Assembly: GCA_025774805.1 (NCBI GenBank)
Contig: JALGZR010000129.1
Location: forward strand, 1 to 8,917
Source of the DNA: a bacterium
GTDB lineage: Bacteria; ARS69
Direction: 5' to 3'
DNA: 8,917 bases
The notes below the pieces were generated by a model. It was given only the letters and a program-made list of their open reading frames with translations, was not told the DNA's origin and ran no database searches. The translations under genes were made by a program, and so were the position numbers. Below are positions 1 to 8,917 of this stretch, one piece after another. The number at the start of each line of letters is the position of its first letter. The first letter of the stretch is position 1.

Positions 1-2
1 CT

Positions 3-413
3 TCGCGGATTCCGTCACCCGGGGGTCTGTCCCCCGGGGGGGGTCCGATCGCCTGGATCGCCGCCAATCAGAGGAAAGGCGTCTCCACCGCGCCGGCGGT
101 CACCATTCACGCGACTGCGGCTTTCAGCCTGGAACACTGGGATCGTGACCGAAAGGATTGCGGGCGAGAGCTGCTTCAAGCAGCGGAAGTCTGGCTGGGA
201 TCGGCTGTTACCGAGTTCCAGGTCCACGGCTGGCGCTACAGCAAACCCGTCCGCGTCGAAGAGAGTCCCTGCCGGATTCTGAGTGAATCGCCGCCGTTGG
301 TTCTTGCCGGAGATGCCTTCGCGGGCCCGCGCGTCGAGGGCGCCGCGCTTTCCGGCTGGGCCGCCGCCGAGGCCCTAAAACAGACGAACCTCGACGCCGA
401 AGATCGACGCTGA
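3..413 (+). CDS. NAD(P)/FAD-dependent oxidoreductase, renalase/amine-oxidase-like, C-terminal part (5' truncated by window edge)
   Basis: An open frame enters from the left edge and stops at TGA 411-413 (136 residues visible). The segment GPIAWIAANQRKGVS, then a TIHAT...FSLEHWD stretch and VHGWRYSKPV, match the substrate-domain part of the COG3380 family of renalase-like FAD oxidases. The end of the protein has LVLAGDAFAGPRVEGAALSG, the C-terminal FAD-binding signature in which the GD pair contacts the flavin and a short amphipathic helix follows. The N-terminal GxGxxG dinucleotide-binding motif lies outside the window. Family members are soluble flavoproteins; the substrate of this subgroup is not established. 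The 127 nt gap to the next gene is compatible with either read-through or a separate promoter. The coding DNA at 18-38 can form a strong GC hairpin. The family call is firm; the exact activity is unknown. Confidence 0.8.
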   Translation, partial: SRIPSPGGLSPGGGPIAWIAANQRKGVSTAPAVTIHATAAFSLEHWDRDRKDCGRELLQAAEVWLGSAVTEFQVHGWRYSKPVRVEESPCRILSESPPLVLAGDAFAGPRVEGAALSGWAAAEALKQTNLDAEDRR

Positions 414-540: not shown

Positions 541-1233
541 ATGAGGCGGCGTTTGGGACCGGTCGGAATCGGATTTCTCGCCGTTTTCGCGTTGACGGTT
601 CTATCGTGGGGGTGCCAGTCCGTGCCCGAACCCGGCCATAAGATCGTTTCGCAGGAAAAGGGGTACGAGATCCGGGAGTACGAGGGGTACGTCGTCGCCG
701 AGGTGGTGATGACCGGCGCTTGGCGCGATGCGCTCTATGGGGGGTTTCGCGTCCTTTTCGACTACATCCAGGGAAACAACGAGGGACGTGCCAAGGTCGC
801 GATGACGGCGCCGGTCCTGTCCGGTCGTCCCGAGAAGATCGCGATGACGGCCCCGGTTCTGCAGGAGGTCGTCCAGGCCCCACCGGAGAAAGACGGCGGG
901 GGTGAAGGGCCCCCGGGGTCGTCCGGGTTGCAGCGGCACGCGGTCGCCTTCGTCGCACCCGCGGGATACAAGGTCGACACGATGCCGGTGCCGAAGGATC
1001 CGCGCATCCGAATCCGGGCGGTTCCGCCCCAGAAGACGGCGGTGCTTCGGTACGGCGGGTGGACGAATGCAGACAAGGTCATGGAAAAAACGGAGAAACT
1101 GCGCGCGATGCTCGCGCGCGACGGCTGGAAGCCGGCCTCGGAGTTTCGATCGGCCCAGTACAATCCGCCCTGGACGCCTCCCCCGTTTCGTCGGAACGAA
1201 ATCATCGTGGAGATAGTGCGTAGCCAACCGTGA
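541..1233 (+). CDS. SOUL family heme-binding protein, probable lipoprotein
   Basis: A 230-residue protein. Residues 1-24 are a basic then hydrophobic export signal ending LSWGC, so Cys25 is a plausible lipidation site, although the -3 residue (Ser) is not the usual Leu/Val. The mature part is a full-length SOUL/HBP domain. It shows YEIREYEGYVVAEV near residues 42-55, the twin KVAMTAPVL and KIAMTAPVL strands (about 85-93 and 99-107) typical of the family, and the closing YNPPWTPPPFRRNE box (207-220). SOUL proteins bind heme or other tetrapyrroles loosely, through hydrophobic contacts; the bacterial role is not settled. A Gly/Pro-rich insert lies at about 113-129. ATG 541 gives the signal peptide; upstream purine-rich sequence (GGAGACGGA, about 525-533) is a weak SD. 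The gene converges on the lipocalin gene and shares a terminator with it. Confidence 0.92.
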   Translation: MRRRLGPVGIGFLAVFALTVLSWGCQSVPEPGHKIVSQEKGYEIREYEGYVVAEVVMTGAWRDALYGGFRVLFDYIQGNNEGRAKVAMTAPVLSGRPEKIAMTAPVLQEVVQAPPEKDGGGEGPPGSSGLQRHAVAFVAPAGYKVDTMPVPKDPRIRIRAVPPQKTAVLRYGGWTNADKVMEKTEKLRAMLARDGWKPASEFRSAQYNPPWTPPPFRRNEIIVEIVRSQP

Positions 1234-1308: not shown

Positions 1309-1833
1309 TTACGGCCATCGCTGCGGGACCCGCCGAATCTGGCCGGTGTCGTAGCCGGCCGCGGCCAGTTGCTCCACGATCCTTCTGTAGTCCGTTTCGG
1401 GGATATCGGGGGTGCGGGCCATGATCCAGACGTAGTCGCGCTTGCTGCGGCCGATGACGGTCTGGGTGTAGCTTTCGTTCAAGTGAATGATCAGGTATTC
1501 TGCCTTAAATGGCCAAATGAACTGCATTCCCCACACGGCATTTGACGACCGGTCGCGGATGTACCCCCGCGGGTTGTATGTCTTCCTCGGGCCGTCGAAA
1601 CCACCTTTTCGGAAGGTGAACGTTGTGGCGATCGTTCCGTCCGGTTCGAGCCGGTACGATTCGACGGCGTTGTGCGCGCCCTGCTCGATCCAGGTCGGGA
1701 TGTTGGCGACCACGTACCAGTCTCCCATGAAGCGGGGGAGGTCGACGCGGTCCACGGTCGCAAGGGGTGGCAGGGATGCGCCGCAGCCCCCCATCAGCAC
1801 CGCCACGCCGAGCATGACAAGCCGGATCCGCAT
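1309..1833 (-). CDS. blc: Lipocalin family lipoprotein (Blc-like)
   Basis: A 174-residue protein with an N-terminal lipoprotein signal: hydrophobic residues 3-15 and lipobox LMGGC, so Cys17 would be acylated. Lipocalin signatures follow: the GDWYVVANIP box (37-46, the GxW motif of strand A), then NAVESYRLEPDGTI, and the C-terminal RDYVWIMARTPDIP box (132-144) that closes the barrel in the Blc/apolipoprotein-D type. Length matches E. coli Blc. Members sit at the outer membrane and bind fatty acids or lysophospholipids; Blc is linked to envelope stress and membrane repair. It lies 33 nt downstream of the chalcone-isomerase-like gene on the same strand, so the two are likely co-transcribed. GGGGA a few bases upstream of ATG 1833 is an acceptable SD. 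The context fits handling of lipids made or released by the neighbouring fatty-acid-modifying enzymes; that link is inference. Confidence 0.92.
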   Translation of the reverse strand: MRIRLVMLGVAVLMGGCGASLPPLATVDRVDLPRFMGDWYVVANIPTWIEQGAHNAVESYRLEPDGTIATTFTFRKGGFDGPRKTYNPRGYIRDRSSNAVWGMQFIWPFKAEYLIIHLNESYTQTVIGRSKRDYVWIMARTPDIPETDYRRIVEQLAAAGYDTGQIRRVPQRWP

Positions 1834-1866
1834 CGGTTCCCCATTCCCTTTCCGCGCAACGGTTCG

Positions 1867-2472
1867 TTACCCTTTCCGGAGAAGTTCCTTCTTGAGGCCG
1901 TCGTCGAGCGGCTTCTCCCCCAGCCATATCGAGAAATAGGCGGCGGCGAAGTCGGCCCCCTCGATCACGGTCAACGGGATGCCGTTCTGGGACAGTTCCG
2001 TTCCCCGGCCCGGGACGTAGGTGAGCGCGTAGCGGTCACCCGGACGGATGTCCCGGTAGGCGCGGTCGATCCGGTCGAGGCGGCCGCGGAGTCTTTCCAG
2101 CGTCTTTTCGTCCACGTTCCGGACGAGGATCTTCTCCCCGGCCTTGCCGAACTCCTTCCCGGGGATCGACCAGAAGTAGGAGAACTCCATCCGCTTCGGC
2201 ACGTCCTCGAGAACGGAGGAAGGGTCTGCACCCTCGGGCAGATAAAGGCCCACGACGTATCCGCGGAAGACGATCTTGTATCGAAGCAGCGCGGCGTTCT
2301 GCAGGTGCAGGACGACCCCGTCCCCGGTGTAAGACCCCGGGAACGTAACCCCCTCGATGACCATCGGGGGGGTTACCGGCAGGCCGGTGGCTTCCGCCGG
2401 TGCGAGGGACGGGAATGCGGACGCAAGGAGAAAAACCGCAATACACGCTCCAAGATTCCCTTTCCGGGCCAT
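1867..2472 (-). CDS. Chalcone-isomerase-like domain protein, exported
   Basis: A protein of 201 residues from ATG 2472. The N-terminus (MARKG, then a hydrophobic run to LAPAEA at about 28) is a clear signal peptide with an AxA-type cut, so it is periplasmic. The mature part has the chalcone-isomerase-like pattern: GVTFPGSY, a KIVFRGYVVGLYLPEG strand pair (about 66-81), SYFWSIPGKEF, and the ending AAYFSIWLGEKPLDDGLKKELL (about 177-198). Bacterial members are thought to bind fatty acids or other hydrophobic ligands; isomerase activity should not be assumed. Start choice is uncertain. AGGAGG (2492-2487) lies 2 nt before ATG 2484 and 14 nt before ATG 2472, and a GTG at 2523 also keeps the frame. 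ATG 2472 gives the most normal signal peptide. It is divergent from the DUF1295 gene and leads the lipocalin gene. Chalcone-isomerase-like genes are recalled from related CFA/DUF1365 clusters in gammaproteobacteria. Confidence 0.85.
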   Translation of the reverse strand: MARKGNLGACIAVFLLASAFPSLAPAEATGLPVTPPMVIEGVTFPGSYTGDGVVLHLQNAALLRYKIVFRGYVVGLYLPEGADPSSVLEDVPKRMEFSYFWSIPGKEFGKAGEKILVRNVDEKTLERLRGRLDRIDRAYRDIRPGDRYALTYVPGRGTELSQNGIPLTVIEGADFAAAYFSIWLGEKPLDDGLKKELLRKG

Positions 2473-2639
2473 ATCGGTAATCATTGCCTCCTGTCGGTTT
2501 CCGAGGTTTTCATTTGGATTCACGCCGCCGCCCGGGAGATTCCGGTCCCGGCGCCGCGTGTTTGCGGAATCCTCCTTCCTTTCCGGTCATCTATTCTGTA
2601 GACGAAAAAACGGTTGCGAACCGGTTGCAGGAGTCGGGA

Positions 2640-3431
2640 ATGGGTCCGGTGAAAATGGCGCTGATCGGCTGGGGGATCGTCTCCCTTGCGATGGTTTTCC
2701 TCTTTCTCTACCAGAGGTCCCGGTCCGATGCCGGCATCGTCGACGTGGGGTGGGCGTCGGGGGTGGGGCTCCTCTGCCTTTTCTATGCCCTGACTGCGGA
2801 TGGGGACCCGGCGCGGCGGGCGGTCGTGGCCGCATTGGGGATGGCCTGGGGAGGACGGCTTGCGTTCTACCTTTTCCGGGACCGGGTTCTCCCGCCGGGA
2901 GAGGACGGAAGGTACAAGACGCTCCGCGAGAAGTGGGGGGAAAAGGCCCAGGCGTGGTTCTTCGTCTTCTTCCAGGTGCAGGCGGCCTGGGCCGTCCTGT
3001 TTTCCCTCCCCTTCCTGGCCGCGACGGCCAATCCGGTCCCCGCCTTCACTCCATGGGACGTCCTGGGGATTTCGGTTTTCGCCGTGGCCCTGGCCGGGGA
3101 GACGCTGGCCGACCGCCAGCTTTCCCGGTTCCGGGCCGAGCCGGCGAACCGGGGGATGGTCTGCCGTGAGGGACTCTGGCGCTTCTCCCGGCACCCGAAC
3201 TACTTCTTCGAGTGGATCCACTGGTTCGCCTACGTCCTTCTCGCCGCAGGGTCGCCCCTTTGGCTTCTCACCCTTCTCGGCCCCGTATTGATGCTATTGT
3301 TCCTGTTCAAGGTCACCGGAATCCCGTACACGGAGGCGCAGGCGATCAAGTCCCGCGGCGAGAAATACCGCGAGTACCAGCGGACCACGAGCGCCTTTAT
3401 CCCCTGGTTCCCGAAGGAGGATCGGCGGTGA
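2640..3431 (+). CDS. DUF1295 integral membrane protein (steroid 5-alpha-reductase-like superfamily)
   Basis: 263 residues from ATG 2640, chosen because AGGAG (2629-2633) sits 6 nt upstream; the frame is open further upstream but without support. It is a polytopic membrane protein with hydrophobic segments near residues 8-25, 38-52, 104-128, 140-155 and 190-225. Family landmarks are the early [10 protein letters not shown] (30-39), GETLADRQ (153-160), and the C-terminal box [18 protein letters not shown] (178-195) with [21 protein letters not shown]. This His/Asn/Tyr-rich box resembles the NADPH-binding end of 5-alpha-reductases and isoprenylcysteine or phospholipid methyltransferases (ICMT-like fold). 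The reaction of DUF1295 is not known; reduction of an acyl or isoprenoid double bond is a reasonable guess. The stop overlaps the GTG of the next gene (GTGA), so the pair is translationally coupled. Confidence 0.9.
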
Positions 3432-4462
3432 TCTCCCCGGTCGGACTCGCGGAACGCGGCCTCGTGCCGGACGCCCTGATCCGGGCGGGGATAAACAGGC
3501 TCAACCGCGGTCGTCTCGCTTCCCTGGTCCGCGGCGGGAACGCGGAGGCGCAGAAGGCGGACTACGAGGAGATGCTCCGTGCCCTGGGAACCGGCCCGAT
3601 CGCGGTGGAGACGAGGGCCGCCAACGAGCAGCACTACGAGGTCCCGCCCGCCTTCTTCCGCCGGGTCCTCGGGAAACGGATGAAATACAGCTGCGCCCTG
3701 TGGCCGCCGGGCATCGAATCCCTCGACGAGGCGGAAGAGGCGATGCTCGCCGTTACCTGCGAGCGGGCGGGGATCGGAGACGGCATGGAGATCCTCGAGC
3801 TCGGATGCGGGTGGGGATCCCTCTCCCTGTGGATGGCCGAGCGGTTCCCGGGGAGCCGCGTTCTCGCGGTGTCGAACTCGACGCCCCAGCGGCGCTTCAT
3901 CGAGGGGGAATGCGCCGCGCGGGGCTTGCGCAACCTCTCGGTCCGCACCTGCGACATGAACGTCTTCGATCCGGCGGCCTCCTTCGACCGCGTCGTCTCC
4001 GTGGAGATGTTCGAGCACATGCGCAACTGGCGGGAGCTCCTCCGGCGGATCTCCGGGTGGCTGCGCCCGGAGGGGAAGCTCTTCGTGCACGTCTTCTCCC
4101 ACCGGGCGTTTCCGTACTTCTTCGAGGCCGAAGGGGAGGACAACTGGATGGGAAGGAACTTCTTCACGGGGGGAGTCATGCCGTCCGACGATCTCCTGCC
4201 CCGCTTCCGGGAGCGCCTTCGACTGGAGGGGCACTGGCGCGTCGACGGGACGCACTATGCCCGGACCGCGCGGGCCTGGCTCGACAACCTCGACGTAAGG
4301 ACGGGGGAGATCCTGCCGATCCTTGCGGAAACCTACGGCGCCGGGCGGGAGCGTCTCTGGCTCCAGCGGTGGAGGATCTTCTTCATGGCCTGCGAGGAGC
4401 TGTGGGGCTTCGGGGAAGGAAGGGAGTGGCTCGTTTCCCACTACCTCTTCGGGAAGGCGTGA
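3428..4462 (+). CDS. SAM-dependent methyltransferase, CFA-synthase family / coclaurine N-methyltransferase-like
   Basis: 344 residues from GTG 3428. The start is set by AAGGAGG (3414-3420) 7 nt upstream and by a 4 nt GTGA overlap with the DUF1295 stop. Residues 66-98 carry the family entry motif ([12 protein letters not shown], then KYSCALWP with Cys89, aligned with the active-site Cys of CFA synthases). The SAM-binding site is [13 protein letters not shown] (122-134), followed by [16 protein letters not shown] (194-198) and LFVHVFSH (218-225, His221) retain the Glu and His positions that hold bicarbonate in E. coli Cfa. [20 protein letters not shown] (238-257) is the hallmark of the coclaurine-N-methyltransferase-like branch. 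It is probably a cytosolic or membrane-associated enzyme methylating a lipid or amine; the substrate is unknown. Its last 22 nt overlap the 3' end of the convergent DUF2878 gene. Confidence 0.9.
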
Positions 4463-4974
4463 TTCCGGGAGAATCTCCGGGAGAGTGCGAAGAGCGCAGG
4501 CACCGCGACCGCCCAGAGGACGCTCAGGGCCAGCAAACCATGCCAGGACGGTTCGGGGAACCGGATCGCCCCCAGCCGCGCGCCTCCGAGATACGCCAGG
4601 GGACCGGCGACGGCCCCCAGGAGCAACGACAGGAAGGGACGGCTGGAAATCGCTTTGAGCGATACGTTCAGGGTGGTCGCGAAATTGGCCCACATCAGAG
4701 GAAGCCATGCCGGCGCCAGGGGGGGCGGAAGGATCCAGGGAGCGGCGGAGTAGAACCCCGCCGCGTTCATGCCCGTCTCGGCCAGCAGTCCGATCCCCGT
4801 CGCGGTTCCGATGAGCATCAGCTCTCTTTTCCGGTCCGCGCTGCGCGCGAGGTGGACGGCAACGACGAGAAGGACCGCGGCCGGCCCGGTCCAGGGATGT
4901 CCGTTGGCGGGTCCGAGAACGGATGCGAACCAGCCCGCCTGGAACAGGACGATATTCAGGATCAGCGGGAACAA
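4441..4974 (-). CDS. DUF2878 integral membrane protein
   Basis: About 177 residues, highly hydrophobic. The N-terminus [21 protein letters not shown] and the later [20 protein letters not shown] (about 98-117), [15 protein letters not shown] and a final membrane helix before a basic tail match the DUF2878 family. These are small polytopic inner-membrane proteins of unknown function, usually found beside CFA-like methyltransferases and DUF1365 genes. No ATG is available. TTG 4974 is the best start, making a 13 nt overlap with the stop of the upstream methyltransferase gene and so suggesting coupled translation. There is no clear SD, so the start is uncertain. The stop TAG (4443-4441) lies inside the convergent methyltransferase gene (22 nt tail-to-tail overlap). 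It is the last gene of the minus-strand operon. Confidence 0.82.
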
Positions 4975-6236
4975 TGAGCTGTCGGTAGGATCGTCGCCCC
5001 CCGCCAGGAAGGCTTCGCGAAGAGGATCTGTACGTTCCCGTTGTACCGCTCGGAGAAGGACCCCTCGCAGTAGCAGAGGTAGAACTCCCACATCCGGAGG
5101 AACCGCTCCGGGAACCCCATCGCGCGCACCTCTTCTTTCCTCGAAAGAAAGCGGTTCCTCCACTCCCGGAGCGTCCATGCGTAGTGGGGCGTGATGTCCT
5201 CGAGGTTTACGGGCCGGAGGTCGGTGCGCGACGCCGCGCTGCACAGGGCGGCGACCGACGGGATGAAGCTCCCCGGGAAGATGTACCGCTTGATGAAGTC
5301 CACCGACCGGGTGTGCCGCCGGTATATCCGGTCCGGTATGGTGATCGCCTGGAGGAGCATCGTCCCCCGGGAGGAAAGGAGGGAGGCGCAGCGCCGGAAG
5401 AAATCGTCCAGGTAGTGGTGCCCCACGGCCTCGATCATCTCGATCGAGGCGATCTTGTCGTAGACACCGGTCATGCGCCGGTAATCCTCGAGCACGATCG
5501 AGACCCGGCCTTCCAGGCCCGCCTTCTGGACCCGCTCCCGCGCGAGCTCGGCCTGCCTGTCGGAGATCGTGATCCCCGTGACCCGGCAGCCGTAGCGGCT
5601 CGCCGCGTGGATCGCGAAGCCCCCCCACCCGCACCCGATCTCGAGGAGATGATCTCCGGGATTCAGATCGAGCTTGCGGCAGACCCGATCGAACTTCGCC
5701 GTCTGGGCCTCCTCCAGGGTGCTGCCCGGGATCTCGAAGATCCCGCAGGAATAGGCCATCGACGGGTCGAGAAACAGTTCGTAGAAGGCGTTCCCGAGAT
5801 CGTAGTGGTCCGCGATGTTCCGGCGGCTGCCAGATTCCGTGTTGCGGCGCAGGGCGTGGTAGAGACGCAGGAAGGGACGGGAAAGGACCGCCGTTCCGCC
5901 TTCCATCCTCTCCAGGGCCTCCGCGTTCCGGGCGAGGATCCTCGCCACGGAAACCAGGTCGTCGGCCGTCCAGTGCCCGTCCATGTAGGAGGCGCCGGCC
6001 CCGACGCTCCCGCCGAGCAGCGCCCGCCGGTAGAATTTCCGGTCCCGGACCGTGACAGTCGCGGAAAGGTCGGCCCCGCTACCGAAGGAGCGCGAATGTT
6101 CCCCGTCGGCGATGGTGAGCGTCCCCTCCCGGATGTTCGCCAGACGCCGGAACAGGAGAGACCGCGATGTGCGGTCCACAATCCCGTCCGTCGAATATGC
6201 GGCCTCCATCGCGCGGATCCGCGCCGTTCCGTCCAT
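4962..6236 (-). CDS. Cyclopropane-fatty-acyl-phospholipid synthase family methyltransferase
   Basis: 424 residues, longer than E. coli Cfa (382). An N-terminal domain contains ASYMDGHWTADDL (82-94). The catalytic domain has NIADHYDLGNAFYELFLDPSMAYSCGIF (140-167), with Cys164 at the active-site Cys position, and the SAM loop LLEIGCGWGGFA (197-208). IEMIEAVG (265-272) has Glu269 at the bicarbonate-ligand position. Near the C-terminus are DFIKRYIFPGS and MWEFYLCYCEGSFSER (382-397), retaining the conserved Tyr (Tyr386). The segment LLQAITIPD (294-302) puts Gln296 where E. coli Cfa has the bicarbonate-binding His266, suggesting chemistry other than plain cyclopropanation, such as methyl or methylene transfer as in methylated fatty acid synthesis. 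GGAG 7 nt upstream supports ATG 6236, which is 4 nt after the DUF1365 stop. Expected to act on unsaturated chains of membrane phospholipids. Confidence 0.93.
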   Translation of the reverse strand: MDGTARIRAMEAAYSTDGIVDRTSRSLLFRRLANIREGTLTIADGEHSRSFGSGADLSATVTVRDRKFYRRALLGGSVGAGASYMDGHWTADDLVSVARILARNAEALERMEGGTAVLSRPFLRLYHALRRNTESGSRRNIADHYDLGNAFYELFLDPSMAYSCGIFEIPGSTLEEAQTAKFDRVCRKLDLNPGDHLLEIGCGWGGFAIHAASRYGCRVTGITISDRQAELARERVQKAGLEGRVSIVLEDYRRMTGVYDKIASIEMIEAVGHHYLDDFFRRCASLLSSRGTMLLQAITIPDRIYRRHTRSVDFIKRYIFPGSFIPSVAALCSAASRTDLRPVNLEDITPHYAWTLREWRNRFLSRKEEVRAMGFPERFLRMWEFYLCYCEGSFSERYNGNVQILFAKPSWRGATILPTAHCSR

Positions 6237-6240
6237 GTGC

Positions 6241-7014
6241 CTACTCCGCAGGGGTTCTCTTGGAAGGATGAGCGAAGAAGGGCACCCGTTTCAGCCAAAG
6301 GCGCAGGGCCTGCCAGTAGATTCCCGCAACGACCTTCCCGGACATGAACGAGTGGGAAGCAAGCGCGGCAGCCAGTGTCCGGGAGGTGAGCGGCTTTTTG
6401 CGAAGAGAGAGGCCGGCGTCGAAGATCCGTTCCCCCTTCTCGAACGCGATCATGAACACGCTCAGGGCTTCGCCCGGTTCCCGGAACCGCCAGTCGTAGT
6501 CGATCCCCATGTCGAGGAACGGGGAGACGTGAAATGATTTCCGGAACCGGTACCTCCTCCAGGAGTGGTGGACCGATTCGTTTCCGCGGTCGCCGAAGAC
6601 GTAGGCGTGGCGCTCCCCCCAGGGGGTGTTCGTGATCTCCGCGACGATCGCCTCGACGCGTTTCCCTTCCCGGTCGTAGCAGTAATAGAAGCTCACCGGG
6701 TTCTGGAGATACCCGAAGTACCGCAGGTGGGTGAGGAGCCGCACCGGGCCCGCGGGACGGATTCCCAGCCGTTCCTCGACGAGATCGCGGACGGCCCTGT
6801 CGAGAGGAGCAGAGGGGTCTCCGAGGTAATCCTCCCTGCGGAACCACGCGACGTTGGGGCCTTTCGCCGACCAGAGGAGGTAGGGGTCGAAGAGGCCGGG
6901 AAGTTCGGCCAGGTCGAGGTACAGCAGGAAGAGGCGGTAGCGGAACTCGTTACGCACCGGGGCGAATCGCCGGTGGCGCACCTCCCCGCTGTAGACGGCG
7001 CTTCCGACCGTCAC
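6241..7014 (-). CDS. DUF1365 family protein
   Basis: 257 residues from GTG 7014. GGAG lies 7 nt upstream, and GTG overlaps the stop of the FAD oxidoreductase gene (GTGA), so translation is coupled. Longer in-frame extension upstream is only antisense or overlap coding. Family signatures in order: VYSGEVRHRRFAPVRNEFRY (8-27), LYLDLAELPGLF, VRLLTHLRYFGYLQNPVSFYYCYD (91-114), EITNTPWGERHAYVF (126-140) and KSFHVSPFLDMGIDYDWRF (159-177). The conserved His, Asn and Cys residues suggest an enzyme, but no reaction is proven. DUF1365 proteins occur almost always between an FAD amine-oxidase-like protein and a CFA-like methyltransferase, as here, and have been annotated as cyclopropane/cyclopropene fatty acid synthesis proteins. 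The context argues for a step on methylated unsaturated acyl chains. A hydrophobic or amphipathic C-terminus may bring it to the membrane. Confidence 0.92.
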   Translation of the reverse strand: MTVGSAVYSGEVRHRRFAPVRNEFRYRLFLLYLDLAELPGLFDPYLLWSAKGPNVAWFRREDYLGDPSAPLDRAVRDLVEERLGIRPAGPVRLLTHLRYFGYLQNPVSFYYCYDREGKRVEAIVAEITNTPWGERHAYVFGDRGNESVHHSWRRYRFRKSFHVSPFLDMGIDYDWRFREPGEALSVFMIAFEKGERIFDAGLSLRKKPLTSRTLAAALASHSFMSGKVVAGIYWQALRLWLKRVPFFAHPSKRTPAE

Positions 7015-8255
7015 AGGACCGCTCCGAACGCCCGGCCCACGTCCGCTGCACTTCTCACCCCGTCCTCGTGGAACCCGTTCCCCCAGTACGCACCGCAGTA
7101 CCAGGTCCGGTTCACGCCGTTGATCTCGGCCCGCCGCGCCTGGGCGGCGACGGCCTGACGCGTGAAGACGGGGTGGTGGTAGACCGTCCGGAGAAGGACC
7201 GTTTCCGGGCGGACCTTCTCCTCCCGGTTGAGGGTCACGAGGAACTCGACGGGGGACGGAAGGGACTGGAGGATGTTCATGTCGTAGGTGACGCAGGCCC
7301 TGTCCGAGGAAGCGGCGGGGAGGAGGTAGTTCCACGACGCCCAGGCGGCGCGCCTCCGGGGGAGAAGGGAGACGTCCGTATGGAGGACGACCCGGTTTAC
7401 CTGGTACCGGACGGAGGAGAGGATCTCCCGCTCGGCGTCCGTGGGATCGGAAAGGATCGCCAAGGCCTGGTCGCTGTGGACGGCGAGCACCACCTGGTCG
7501 AACGGCTCCGGGGGACCTTCCCGGGGGGTCACCTCGACCCCGTCCGGACGCCGGCGCACGGAGAGGACCGGCGTCCCGAGCCGGATCCGATCCCGGAACG
7601 GTTCCGTGAGGGGGGCCACGTAATTCCTGGCCCCGCCCTTGACGACGCGCCACAGGGGTTGGCCGGCCCTGTCCAGGAAACGGTGGTTGTCGAAGAACCG
7701 GGCGAAAAAAAGGGCGGGCATCGAAAGCGCAGCTCCGGGCGCGGCCGACCAGATCGCCGCAGCCATGGGGACGAGGAACAGTTCGGAAAAGAGGCGCGAG
7801 TAGTCGCCCTGCTCGAGGAACTCTTCGAGGGTGGGACGGTCGTTTCCCGAACGGATCAGTTCCGCCATCGCGCGCTTGAACCGGCCCACGTCGGTGAGCA
7901 TCCTCCAGAACGCCGGGCGGAACAGGTTCGCCGGCTGTGCGAAAAGGGTGCGGAAGTTCGAAGGGCAGTATTCGGTTCCCGTCCGCTCGCACCGGGCGCT
8001 GAAGCTCATCGTGGAGGGTTGTGTCGCCACCCCGAGCATCGAGAGGAGGCGGGTGAAGGAAGGGTAGGTCTCTTCGTTGTAGACGATGAACCCGGTATCC
8101 ACGGGGAAGGTTCTTCCTCCCGCATCGACGTCGACGGTTCGCGTGTGTCCGCCGGCATACCCTTGCTCCTCGAAGACGGTCACCTCGTGCTCCGCGGAGA
8201 GCAGGCGCGCTGCCACGAGCCCGGATACCCCGGCGCCGATCACGGCGATTTTCAT
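7011..8255 (-). CDS. NAD(P)/FAD-dependent oxidoreductase, flavin amine-oxidase-like
   Basis: 414 residues from ATG 8255. The start is fixed by the dinucleotide-binding motif beginning at residue 2 (KIAVIGAGVSGLVAARLL) and by a 4 nt ATGA overlap with the upstream desaturase-remnant stop. Glu29 ends the second beta strand (VTVFEE), GGHTRT (35-40) follows, and FPVDTGFIVYNEETYP (50-65) is the classic marker of this subgroup (COG2907). The C-terminal WYCGAYWGNGFHEDGVRSA (385-403) is the FAD-contacting end. This subgroup accompanies CFA-like methyltransferases and DUF1365. In alphaproteobacteria, homologous sets take part in methylated and furan fatty acid synthesis, where desaturation of a methylated acyl chain is required. 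A fatty acyl desaturase or oxidase role is therefore inferred; it could instead act on another hydrophobic substrate. Its neighbours on both sides overlap by 4 nt, so all three are translated from one message. Confidence 0.93.
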   Translation of the reverse strand: MKIAVIGAGVSGLVAARLLSAEHEVTVFEEQGYAGGHTRTVDVDAGGRTFPVDTGFIVYNEETYPSFTRLLSMLGVATQPSTMSFSARCERTGTEYCPSNFRTLFAQPANLFRPAFWRMLTDVGRFKRAMAELIRSGNDRPTLEEFLEQGDYSRLFSELFLVPMAAAIWSAAPGAALSMPALFFARFFDNHRFLDRAGQPLWRVVKGGARNYVAPLTEPFRDRIRLGTPVLSVRRRPDGVEVTPREGPPEPFDQVVLAVHSDQALAILSDPTDAEREILSSVRYQVNRVVLHTDVSLLPRRRAAWASWNYLLPAASSDRACVTYDMNILQSLPSPVEFLVTLNREEKVRPETVLLRTVYHHPVFTRQAVAAQARRAEINGVNRTWYCGAYWGNGFHEDGVRSAADVGRAFGAVL

Positions 8256-8569
8256 GTCGGGACGGTTCCCGTGCGGCGCACCGCCTCGGGGACGGGCCGA
8301 AGGTCGCGGACGATCCCAAGCCACGAGAGGACGACGAGCCCGTAATAGGTCAGGTCGATTTCCCACCGGAAAAACCCCTGCCGTGCGGAGACGGCGCAGC
8401 GGTGGTAGAACGCCGTGATCGCGAACATGCGGATCCGGTAGAGACCTGCGGCCGTTCCCACGGCCACGGGGCTCCACCCCACCCAATAGATTCCCAGGCA
8501 GGAGACGTGAAAGAGGACGAACGGCAGAACGAGCAGGAAGTCGACCTTCTTCTCCGGCGCGGAGGCCAT
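8252..8569 (-). CDS. Internally deleted acyl-CoA desaturase (in-frame remnant lacking the catalytic core)
   Basis: 105 residues from ATG 8569, against roughly 280-300 for the family. Residues 1-57 read as the normal start of a stearoyl-CoA-type desaturase: a polar head, membrane segment LLVLPFVLFHVSCLGIYWVG, then YRIRMFAITAFYHR reaching the first histidine box. Residues 58-105 (CAVSARQGFFRWEIDLTYY, then LSWLGIVRDLRPVP) read as the family's extreme C-terminus, which normally follows the third box HNNHH. The second and third His boxes, most of the first, and the middle membrane segments are missing, joined near 8396-8404. The product cannot bind the di-iron centre as known desaturases do. The frame is intact and its TGA overlaps the ATG of the FAD oxidoreductase, so it still couples translation. 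An in-frame ATG at 8656 would add 29 residues of non-family sequence with no good SD. Confidence 0.72.
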   Translation of the reverse strand: MASAPEKKVDFLLVLPFVLFHVSCLGIYWVGWSPVAVGTAAGLYRIRMFAITAFYHRCAVSARQGFFRWEIDLTYYGLVVLSWLGIVRDLRPVPEAVRRTGTVPT

Positions 8570-8740
8570 CTCCTCGGTCCCGGCGTACGAACCGAACCAA
8601 CATGCCAGGGAAAGGACGATGTTGCGAAAAATGCTTTTTTGGAATTCCACGCGCATGCTTTGTAATTGGATCCCCCATTTCCCGATGCCGTCGGGAGGAG
8701 GGAGTTTCGGGAAAAAGCGGACTACTTGCCGGGCGACGGA

Positions 8741-8917
8741 TCACGGTTCCCGGGCGAACCGTTCCCGTATTTCCTCGACCCGCCTCCGGTTCACGCCGAA
8801 GTCGTAATACCCGGTCCGCGACGCGGATCGGACGTCGATCCTATTCGCGGCTTCGGTAAGCCGCAGTTCCAGGTCGTCCACGAAACCGAACAACGCCGAG
8901 CGGAACTCCGCGTGAAG
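8741..8917 (-). CDS. DUF1499 family protein, C-terminal part (5' truncated by window edge)
   Basis: A minus-strand frame enters from the right edge and stops at TGA 8743-8741 (58 residues visible). The segment FGFVDDLELRLTE followed by IDVRSASRTGYYDFGVNRRRVEEIRERF matches the conserved C-terminal box of DUF1499 (COG4446): a VDD/E strand, then RSxSRxGxxDxGxNRxRVexIR. The rest of the gene lies outside the window. The function of the family is unknown; many members are exported or membrane-anchored. It is on the same strand as the desaturase-to-DUF2878 operon but separated by 171 nt from the ATG at 8569, so it may be the preceding transcription unit rather than its first gene. No poly-T-tailed hairpin is visible directly after its stop. 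Confidence 0.75.
   Translation of the reverse strand, partial: LHAEFRSALFGFVDDLELRLTEAANRIDVRSASRTGYYDFGVNRRRVEEIRERFAREP

Follow-up and report, generated by a model that had tools for sequence, protein, structure and literature searches.

A probable locus for methylated furan fatty acid synthesis, with a linked DUF1295 membrane protein, on an 8,917-bp bacterial contig

In Rhodobacter sphaeroides and Rhodopseudomonas palustris, genetic and in vitro studies have shown that UfaM methylates the cis-vaccenoyl chains of phospholipids, that UfaD, a protein with an NAD-FAD domain, makes a methylated conjugated diene, and that UfaO, a DUF1365 protein, forms the furan ring with O2; the product of these three enzymes is monomethyl furan fatty acids, and FufM methylates the furan ring again (PMC7380195). 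Here we describe the 8,917-bp bacterial contig JALGZR010000129.1 of assembly GCA_025774805.1 (contig C172 of genome G000 in our set), which was analyzed over its whole length and is referred to below as the window. As judged from its gene families and their order, this is quite probably a locus for methylated furan fatty acid synthesis on existing membrane phospholipids, most likely to the dimethyl form, with a predicted part in photo-oxidative stress. The core furan gene set is already known from other bacteria, and the window is a further, nearly complete case of it. What looks new here is the link between such a locus and the membrane protein family DUF1295.

Family calls were made by Pfam profile search of the window's proteins, and the bit scores of these searches are quoted. 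The Ufa- and Fuf-type labels rest on families and gene order, the named R. sphaeroides and R. palustris proteins having been compared by description. The genes on which the argument turns are the following (FAD, flavin adenine dinucleotide; SAM, S-adenosylmethionine):

8252-8656, minus strand: acyl-lipid desaturase remnant, 134 aa, in frame; its halves match an intact desaturase in locus L003
7011-8255, minus strand: FAD amine-oxidase-like protein, a predicted UfaD-type desaturase of the methylated acyl chain (Amino_oxidase, 91 bits)
6241-7014, minus strand: DUF1365 protein, a predicted UfaO-type furan-forming oxygenase (263 bits, model positions 1-234 of 235)
4962-6236, minus strand: CFA1, a CMAS-family SAM methyltransferase of UfaM type (CMAS, 296 bits)
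3428-4462, plus strand: CFA2, a coclaurine-N-methyltransferase (CNMT)-like CMAS protein, the FufM-type second methyltransferase (CMAS, 132 bits)
2640-3431, plus strand: DUF1295 membrane protein with a predicted reductase fold (DUF1295, 239 bits)

The DUF1365 gene starts with a GTG that overlaps the stop codon of the FAD gene (GTGA at 7011-7014), a gap of 4 bp separates DUF1365 from CFA1, and a second GTGA overlap, of 4 bp at 3428-3431, joins DUF1295 to CFA2. These junctions bear out the tight gene overlaps that had been claimed in a sequence-only reading of this DNA. The closest solved relative of the FAD protein is LkcE.

A genome scan with the window's DUF1365 protein retrieved 66 loci from many phyla, and all counts out of 66 refer to these. 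FAD, DUF1365, and CFA1 genes are adjacent in nearly all of them, the exceptions being loci on ending contigs and a Devosia locus (L063) that is without CFA1. DUF2878 was found in 49 of the 66, CNMT-like CFA2 in 12 besides the window, and DUF1295 in 10, with CFA2 and DUF1295 occurring together in seven loci from records titled Deltaproteobacteria, Pseudomonadota, Gemmatimonadetes, Planctomycetota, and Methylotenera. Locus L003 is syntenic with the window from DUF1499 through the chalcone-isomerase-like gene. Most gammaproteobacterial loci (Marinobacter, Vibrio) contain FAD-DUF1365-CFA1-DUF2878 without DUF1295 and CFA2. The sequence-only reading had named co-occurrence of the left-hand genes as a check on its proposal; in this neighbourhood search those genes recur with the CFA/DUF1365/FAD set in loci from Deltaproteobacteria, Beta-, Gamma- and Alphaproteobacteria, Planctomycetota, and Gemmatimonadetes. 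The arrangement of the locus is non-random and not a chance adjacency.

In the proposed pathway, the substrate of CFA1 would be an 18:1 acyl chain, to whose cis double bond the enzyme would add a methyl group from SAM; the chain would then carry a methyl branch and a trans double bond at a shifted position, and no cyclopropane ring. The FAD protein would then add a second, conjugated double bond, the DUF1365 protein would add oxygen from O2 and close the furan ring, and CFA2 would place a second methyl on that ring. The furan lipid would quench singlet oxygen and related oxidants in the membrane, with DUF1295 perhaps acting in an accessory way. That the locus may make an unusual methylated or furan phospholipid acyl chain, as had been proposed from the letters alone, fits both published work and the gene neighbourhoods found here. 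The residues of CFA1 bear on the first of these steps. At the position of His266 of E. coli CFA synthase, which we take to be the bicarbonate-binding residue of cyclopropane synthases, CFA1 and 63 of 63 operon-linked CFA1-type relatives have Gln, CFA2-type proteins retain His, and Glu239 and Tyr317 (E. coli CFA numbering) are invariant in CFA1-type proteins. The replacement of His266 by Gln argues against a cyclopropane product and fits a methyl-branched one.

The best solved relative of CFA2 is the coclaurine N-methyltransferase 6gkv (230 bits, versus 98 for E. coli CFA synthase). CFA2 and CFA1 share 26% identity, the figure also given for FufM and UfaM (PMC7380195). Of 198 Aquabacter-family genomes, 57 encode relatives of CFA2 with 45-57% identity, and DUF1365 accompanies them in 53 of these 57, compared to 40 of the 141 genomes without CFA2 (Fisher p = 7e-18; such co-occurrence p-values overstate independence because species share ancestry and because the DUF1295 profile was built from such loci). 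Among 30 loci from this family, 27 have DUF1295 directly upstream of CFA2, and contig ends truncate two of the remaining three. The suggestion in the sequence-only reading that the second methyltransferase adds a second methylation agrees with the function of FufM in the literature (PMC7380195), CFA2 being CNMT-like. The second methylation by FufM is already known, however, and the pathway extension offered earlier is largely not new.

DUF1295 follows the furan genes more strictly still. The subfamily found in the window occurs in 77 of the 198 Aquabacter-family genomes, all 77 of which have DUF1365, and in 0 of the 105 genomes without DUF1365. In 26 genomes it is present without CFA2, and in 23 of these it lies no more than 6 kb from DUF1365. 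The profile used was built from such furan-type loci, and its scores were bimodal, with either E < 1e-100 or no match at 1e-30. The predicted structure of DUF1295 (predicted local distance difference test score, pLDDT, 95) matched the reductase fold of sterol delta14-reductase and steroid 5-alpha-reductases with a Foldseek probability of 1.00, with Z-scores of 14.6 for 4quv (227 residues aligned, 3.7 A), 14.5 for 7c83, and 13.3 for 7bw1. In DUF1295, the invariant Asp156 and Pro184-Asn185 line up with the Asp and Pro-Asn of PbSRD5A. Kinship to the methyltransferase ICMT was also considered and set behind that to the steroid reductases, since the ICMT match has a Z-score of 11.4 versus 14.6, a modest gap, and since DUF1295 keeps the Pro-Asn where archaeal ICMT has Pro-Met. 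The DUF1295 model additionally matches chain G of 8xku (Z 11.8), which is one subunit of the chloroplast Ycf2-FtsHi motor complex of Arabidopsis; a DUF1295-like protein is thus part of that machine.

We hypothesize from this predicted fold that DUF1295 is a lipid C=C reductase dependent on NADPH (reduced nicotinamide adenine dinucleotide phosphate) and accessory to the furan system. A more specific proposal, which we make tentatively and with some doubt, is that this subfamily is a hitherto unrecognised, dedicated furan-system membrane reductase, whose NADPH-dependent target would be a conjugated double bond in a lipid of the furan pathway, such as the reactive enedione that arises when the furan quenches singlet oxygen, and that it may be conserved from bacteria to an algal singlet-oxygen regulon. 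DUF1295 is not needed for ring formation, given that R. sphaeroides makes its furan acid with UfaM, UfaD, and UfaO and that no DUF1295 is among the genes listed for its RSP1091-1087 operon. We found no paper in the literature that pairs DUF1295 with furan, and the only literature pairing of DUF1295 with singlet oxygen that we found is a study of Chlamydomonas SAK1 (PMC4067076).

Several other explanations of the locus were weighed. It could make methyl-branched or cyclopropane chains without any furan, if CFA1 methylates the chain and either the FAD protein or DUF1295 reduces it to a saturated branched chain; 10-methylstearate synthesis in actinobacteria is a parallel. CFA1 is a CMAS-family enzyme, as this would require, and DUF1295, with its C=C reductase-like fold, could reduce the trans double bond that a UfaM-type enzyme leaves behind. 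Nevertheless, DUF1365, the furan-forming UfaO family, is always present and defines the locus, its retention is explained by no other gene, and the Gln at position 266 in all CFA1 relatives speaks against plain cyclopropane synthesis. We consider this explanation improbable. Still less probable, to a degree that we regard as slight, is that CFA2 is a small-molecule N-methyltransferase and not a lipid methyltransferase. Its best solved relatives are indeed plant coclaurine and pavine N-methyltransferases, but the lipid methylase FufM likewise resembles a CNMT-like plant protein, LIME1, with 38% identity (PMC10940516), and CFA2 tracks DUF1365 across genomes and has no alkaloid genes nearby.

It would also be conceivable that DUF1295, CFA2, the chalcone-isomerase-like gene, and the lipocalin gene are unrelated to the ufa operon and adjoin it by chance, and the Marinobacter and Vibrio loci, most of which do without DUF1295 and CFA2, would be in keeping with this, as would a SOUL gene whose adjacency is limited to this window. 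In contrast, DUF1295, CFA2, or both stand beside the operon in several phyla, and a Cupriavidus plasmid carries eight of the window's families (CFA1, DUF1295, CFA2, DUF2878, lipocalin, chalcone isomerase, DUF1365, and FAD) in one stretch of about 7 kb. Together with the Aquabacter-family counts given above, we take chance adjacency as refuted for DUF1295 (77 of 77 with DUF1365) and for CFA2 (DUF1295 upstream in 27 of 30; p = 7e-18), though not for SOUL, and as an account of the locus it is extremely unlikely.

Furan fatty acid synthesis remains the reading that we prefer, and we would like to note the observations that weigh against it. The ECF11 promoter motif (ECF, extracytoplasmic function), which we take to be TGATCC, a spacer, and TAWGW, is absent from the window (0 matches); the minus-strand run may have its promoter past the end of the contig. 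The desaturase gene beside the FAD gene is broken. Both halves of the remnant match the intact L003 desaturase (175.7 bits), and between them 184 codons have been deleted in frame between two copies of a 10-bp direct repeat. The deleted segment held all histidine boxes, and the reading frame into the FAD gene is kept. If this deletion is real, another source has to supply the acyl double bond. Finally, E. coli with a Halomonas UfaM, encoded in a consecutive ufaD-ufaO-ufaM set, forms 11-methyloctadec-12-enoate, and some cyclopropane acids were also seen in the strain expressing this UfaM (PMC12089945), so that the argument from Gln is not absolute.

Regulatory genes were found beside relatives of the locus, either sigma, ChrR, ECF sigma, or B12-binding MerR-type regulators, and a Shinella record has the order sigma-ChrR-DUF1295-CFA2. 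The sequence-only reading had assigned CFA/FAD/DUF1365 sets to ChrR-RpoE regulons and to ufa furan synthesis; this agrees with published work (PMC7380195, PMC11832516) and with the presence of ChrR beside these relatives. The nine genes smlt2375-smlt2367 of Stenotrophomonas maltophilia, a cluster of similar make-up controlled by sigmaE/ChrR, rise 165- to 697-fold in expression when chrR is mutated (PMC11832516). On the contig itself no regulator gene was found, sigmaE and ChrR included, and no sigma-70 promoter was found in the window. The assembly, in which the contig seems mis-binned, has no Cupin_7 match over the cut-off; a weak ChrR-like cupin on its contig C12 was rejected, as the open reading frames of that contig showed no anti-sigma context. 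Separately, B12-binding regulators lie next to the operon in L004 (MerR type, 3148-4137) and L011 (HTH_17 type, 8295-9179), which suggests light control in some bearers.

The remaining genes of the window are:

8741-8917, minus strand: DUF1499 protein, C-terminal part only, cut by the contig end (DUF1499, 81.5 bits)
4441-~4974, minus strand: DUF2878 small membrane protein, start codon uncertain (136 bits)
1867-2523, minus strand: exported chalcone-isomerase-like protein (Chalcone_3, 125 bits)
1309-1833, minus strand: Blc-type outer-membrane lipocalin with a lipoprotein-like N-terminus (Lipocalin_2, 139 bits; Blc subfamily model)
541-1233, plus strand: SOUL haem-binding protein with a lipoprotein-like signal, a possible member of the locus (SOUL, 156 bits)
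~1-413, plus strand: C-terminus of a renalase-like FAD oxidase

The families that the sequence-only reading had named are thus all present by Pfam profile, with the exception of the desaturase, which has no Pfam match at 8252-8656 and is a broken remnant. The genes of the locus are not one operon. They are transcribed as a minus-strand run from DUF1499 to DUF2878, a convergent plus-strand pair of DUF1295 and CFA2, and a separate minus-strand pair of the chalcone-isomerase-like and lipocalin genes. A complete DUF1499 gene is present in L003 (7299-7781). Among the 66 loci, 16 have a chalcone-isomerase-like gene, in each case no more than a few kb from DUF1365; three of four plasmid loci have one too, and the lipocalin recurs in L004, L008, L010, and three plasmid loci. 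DUF2878, the chalcone-isomerase-like protein, the lipocalin, and DUF1499 are recurrent accessory proteins that probably handle lipids. Plasmids of Acinetobacter piscicola and Burkholderia anthina have the same gene company plus desaturase, photolyase, or sigma/anti-sigma genes. The B. anthina plasmid (L157), which carries the whole furan set with sigma/anti-sigma genes, was typed conjugative, and the furan trait can thus move between strains.

Among the side neighbours, SOUL adjoins the furan locus only in this contig, and its homologue in the related metagenome-assembled genome (MAG) G003 lies about 1.6 Mb from the furan locus there. SOUL genes are strongly singlet-oxygen-induced in Chlamydomonas (PMC4067076). 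Marinobacter loci have renalase-like genes at a distance of about 3-4 kb from the operon, DUF2177 stands beside the operon in five loci (L005, 6136-7008; L062, 1236-1790; L063, 8127-8588; L067, 5896-6306; L156, 10587-10988), and a fasciclin protein does so in L012 (5745-7001).

The contig appears to be mis-binned. Its tetranucleotide correlation with contigs of its own assembly is 0.55-0.80, compared to 0.92-0.98 among the large contigs there, and its correlation with the Deltaproteobacteria MAG G003 (bin162) is 0.91-0.94; the true host is probably a relative of G003. As, in addition, four relatives from the family of the assembly lack DUF1365, host traits were not taken from the assembly, and its COX1 (present), photolyase (absent), and ChrR (below cut-off) results were set aside. 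G003 has haem-copper oxidase genes, which makes O2 chemistry plausible.

Compared to the described systems, the window has the same families as the Ufa and FufM proteins of R. sphaeroides and R. palustris (PMC7380195), and in both cases the two methyltransferases share about 26% identity. The ufaM gene of R. sphaeroides is separate from ufaD and ufaO, and the R. palustris fufM gene (RPA0924) has a locus number far removed from the RPA2569-2571 set, whereas the window has all four enzymes together, along with DUF1295, DUF2878, the chalcone-isomerase-like protein, and the lipocalin. The S. maltophilia cluster (PMC11832516) resembles the window in having an acyl-CoA desaturase, an FAD oxidoreductase, a CFA, a second CFA, and a lipocalin, and by position its cytosolic hypothetical protein would be DUF1365 and its two inner-membrane hypothetical proteins DUF2878 and DUF1295. 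However, that cluster is one divergent operon beside rpoE-chrR, and the window has convergent and divergent groups, a broken desaturase, and no sigma or ChrR gene on the contig. The operons of Aeromonas salmonicida and Vibrio, where blue light induces VC1122, the CFA gene of V. cholerae, share the order FAD-DUF1365-CFA-DUF2878 with the window (PMC10012899, PMC5241685), but in place of DUF1295 and CFA2 they contain SDR and SnoaL/NTF2-like genes.

The pathway has been worked out in two alphaproteobacteria, and the window and its relatives extend the complete four-enzyme set, with its genes in one place, to distant phyla and to plasmids, one of them conjugative. From them also comes a short list of companions without a known function, DUF1295 first, followed by DUF2878, the chalcone-isomerase-like protein, lipocalin, DUF2177, and fasciclin. 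The singlet-oxygen regulon of Chlamydomonas SAK1 includes co-induced CFA1, the CNMT-like CPLD27, DUF1365, DUF1295, SOUL1/2, DUF2177, and fasciclin (PMC4067076), and all of these families are found in the window or beside its bacterial relatives. A review notes the CFA parallel between Chlamydomonas and R. sphaeroides (PMC8491031); we did not find the wider match of gene lists stated in the literature. Chlamydomonas differs in being eukaryotic, with unlinked genes, and we found no literature report of a furan acid from it. The list of companions is shared with its singlet-oxygen response, and the function of DUF1295 would bear on photo-oxidative stress in both kingdoms.

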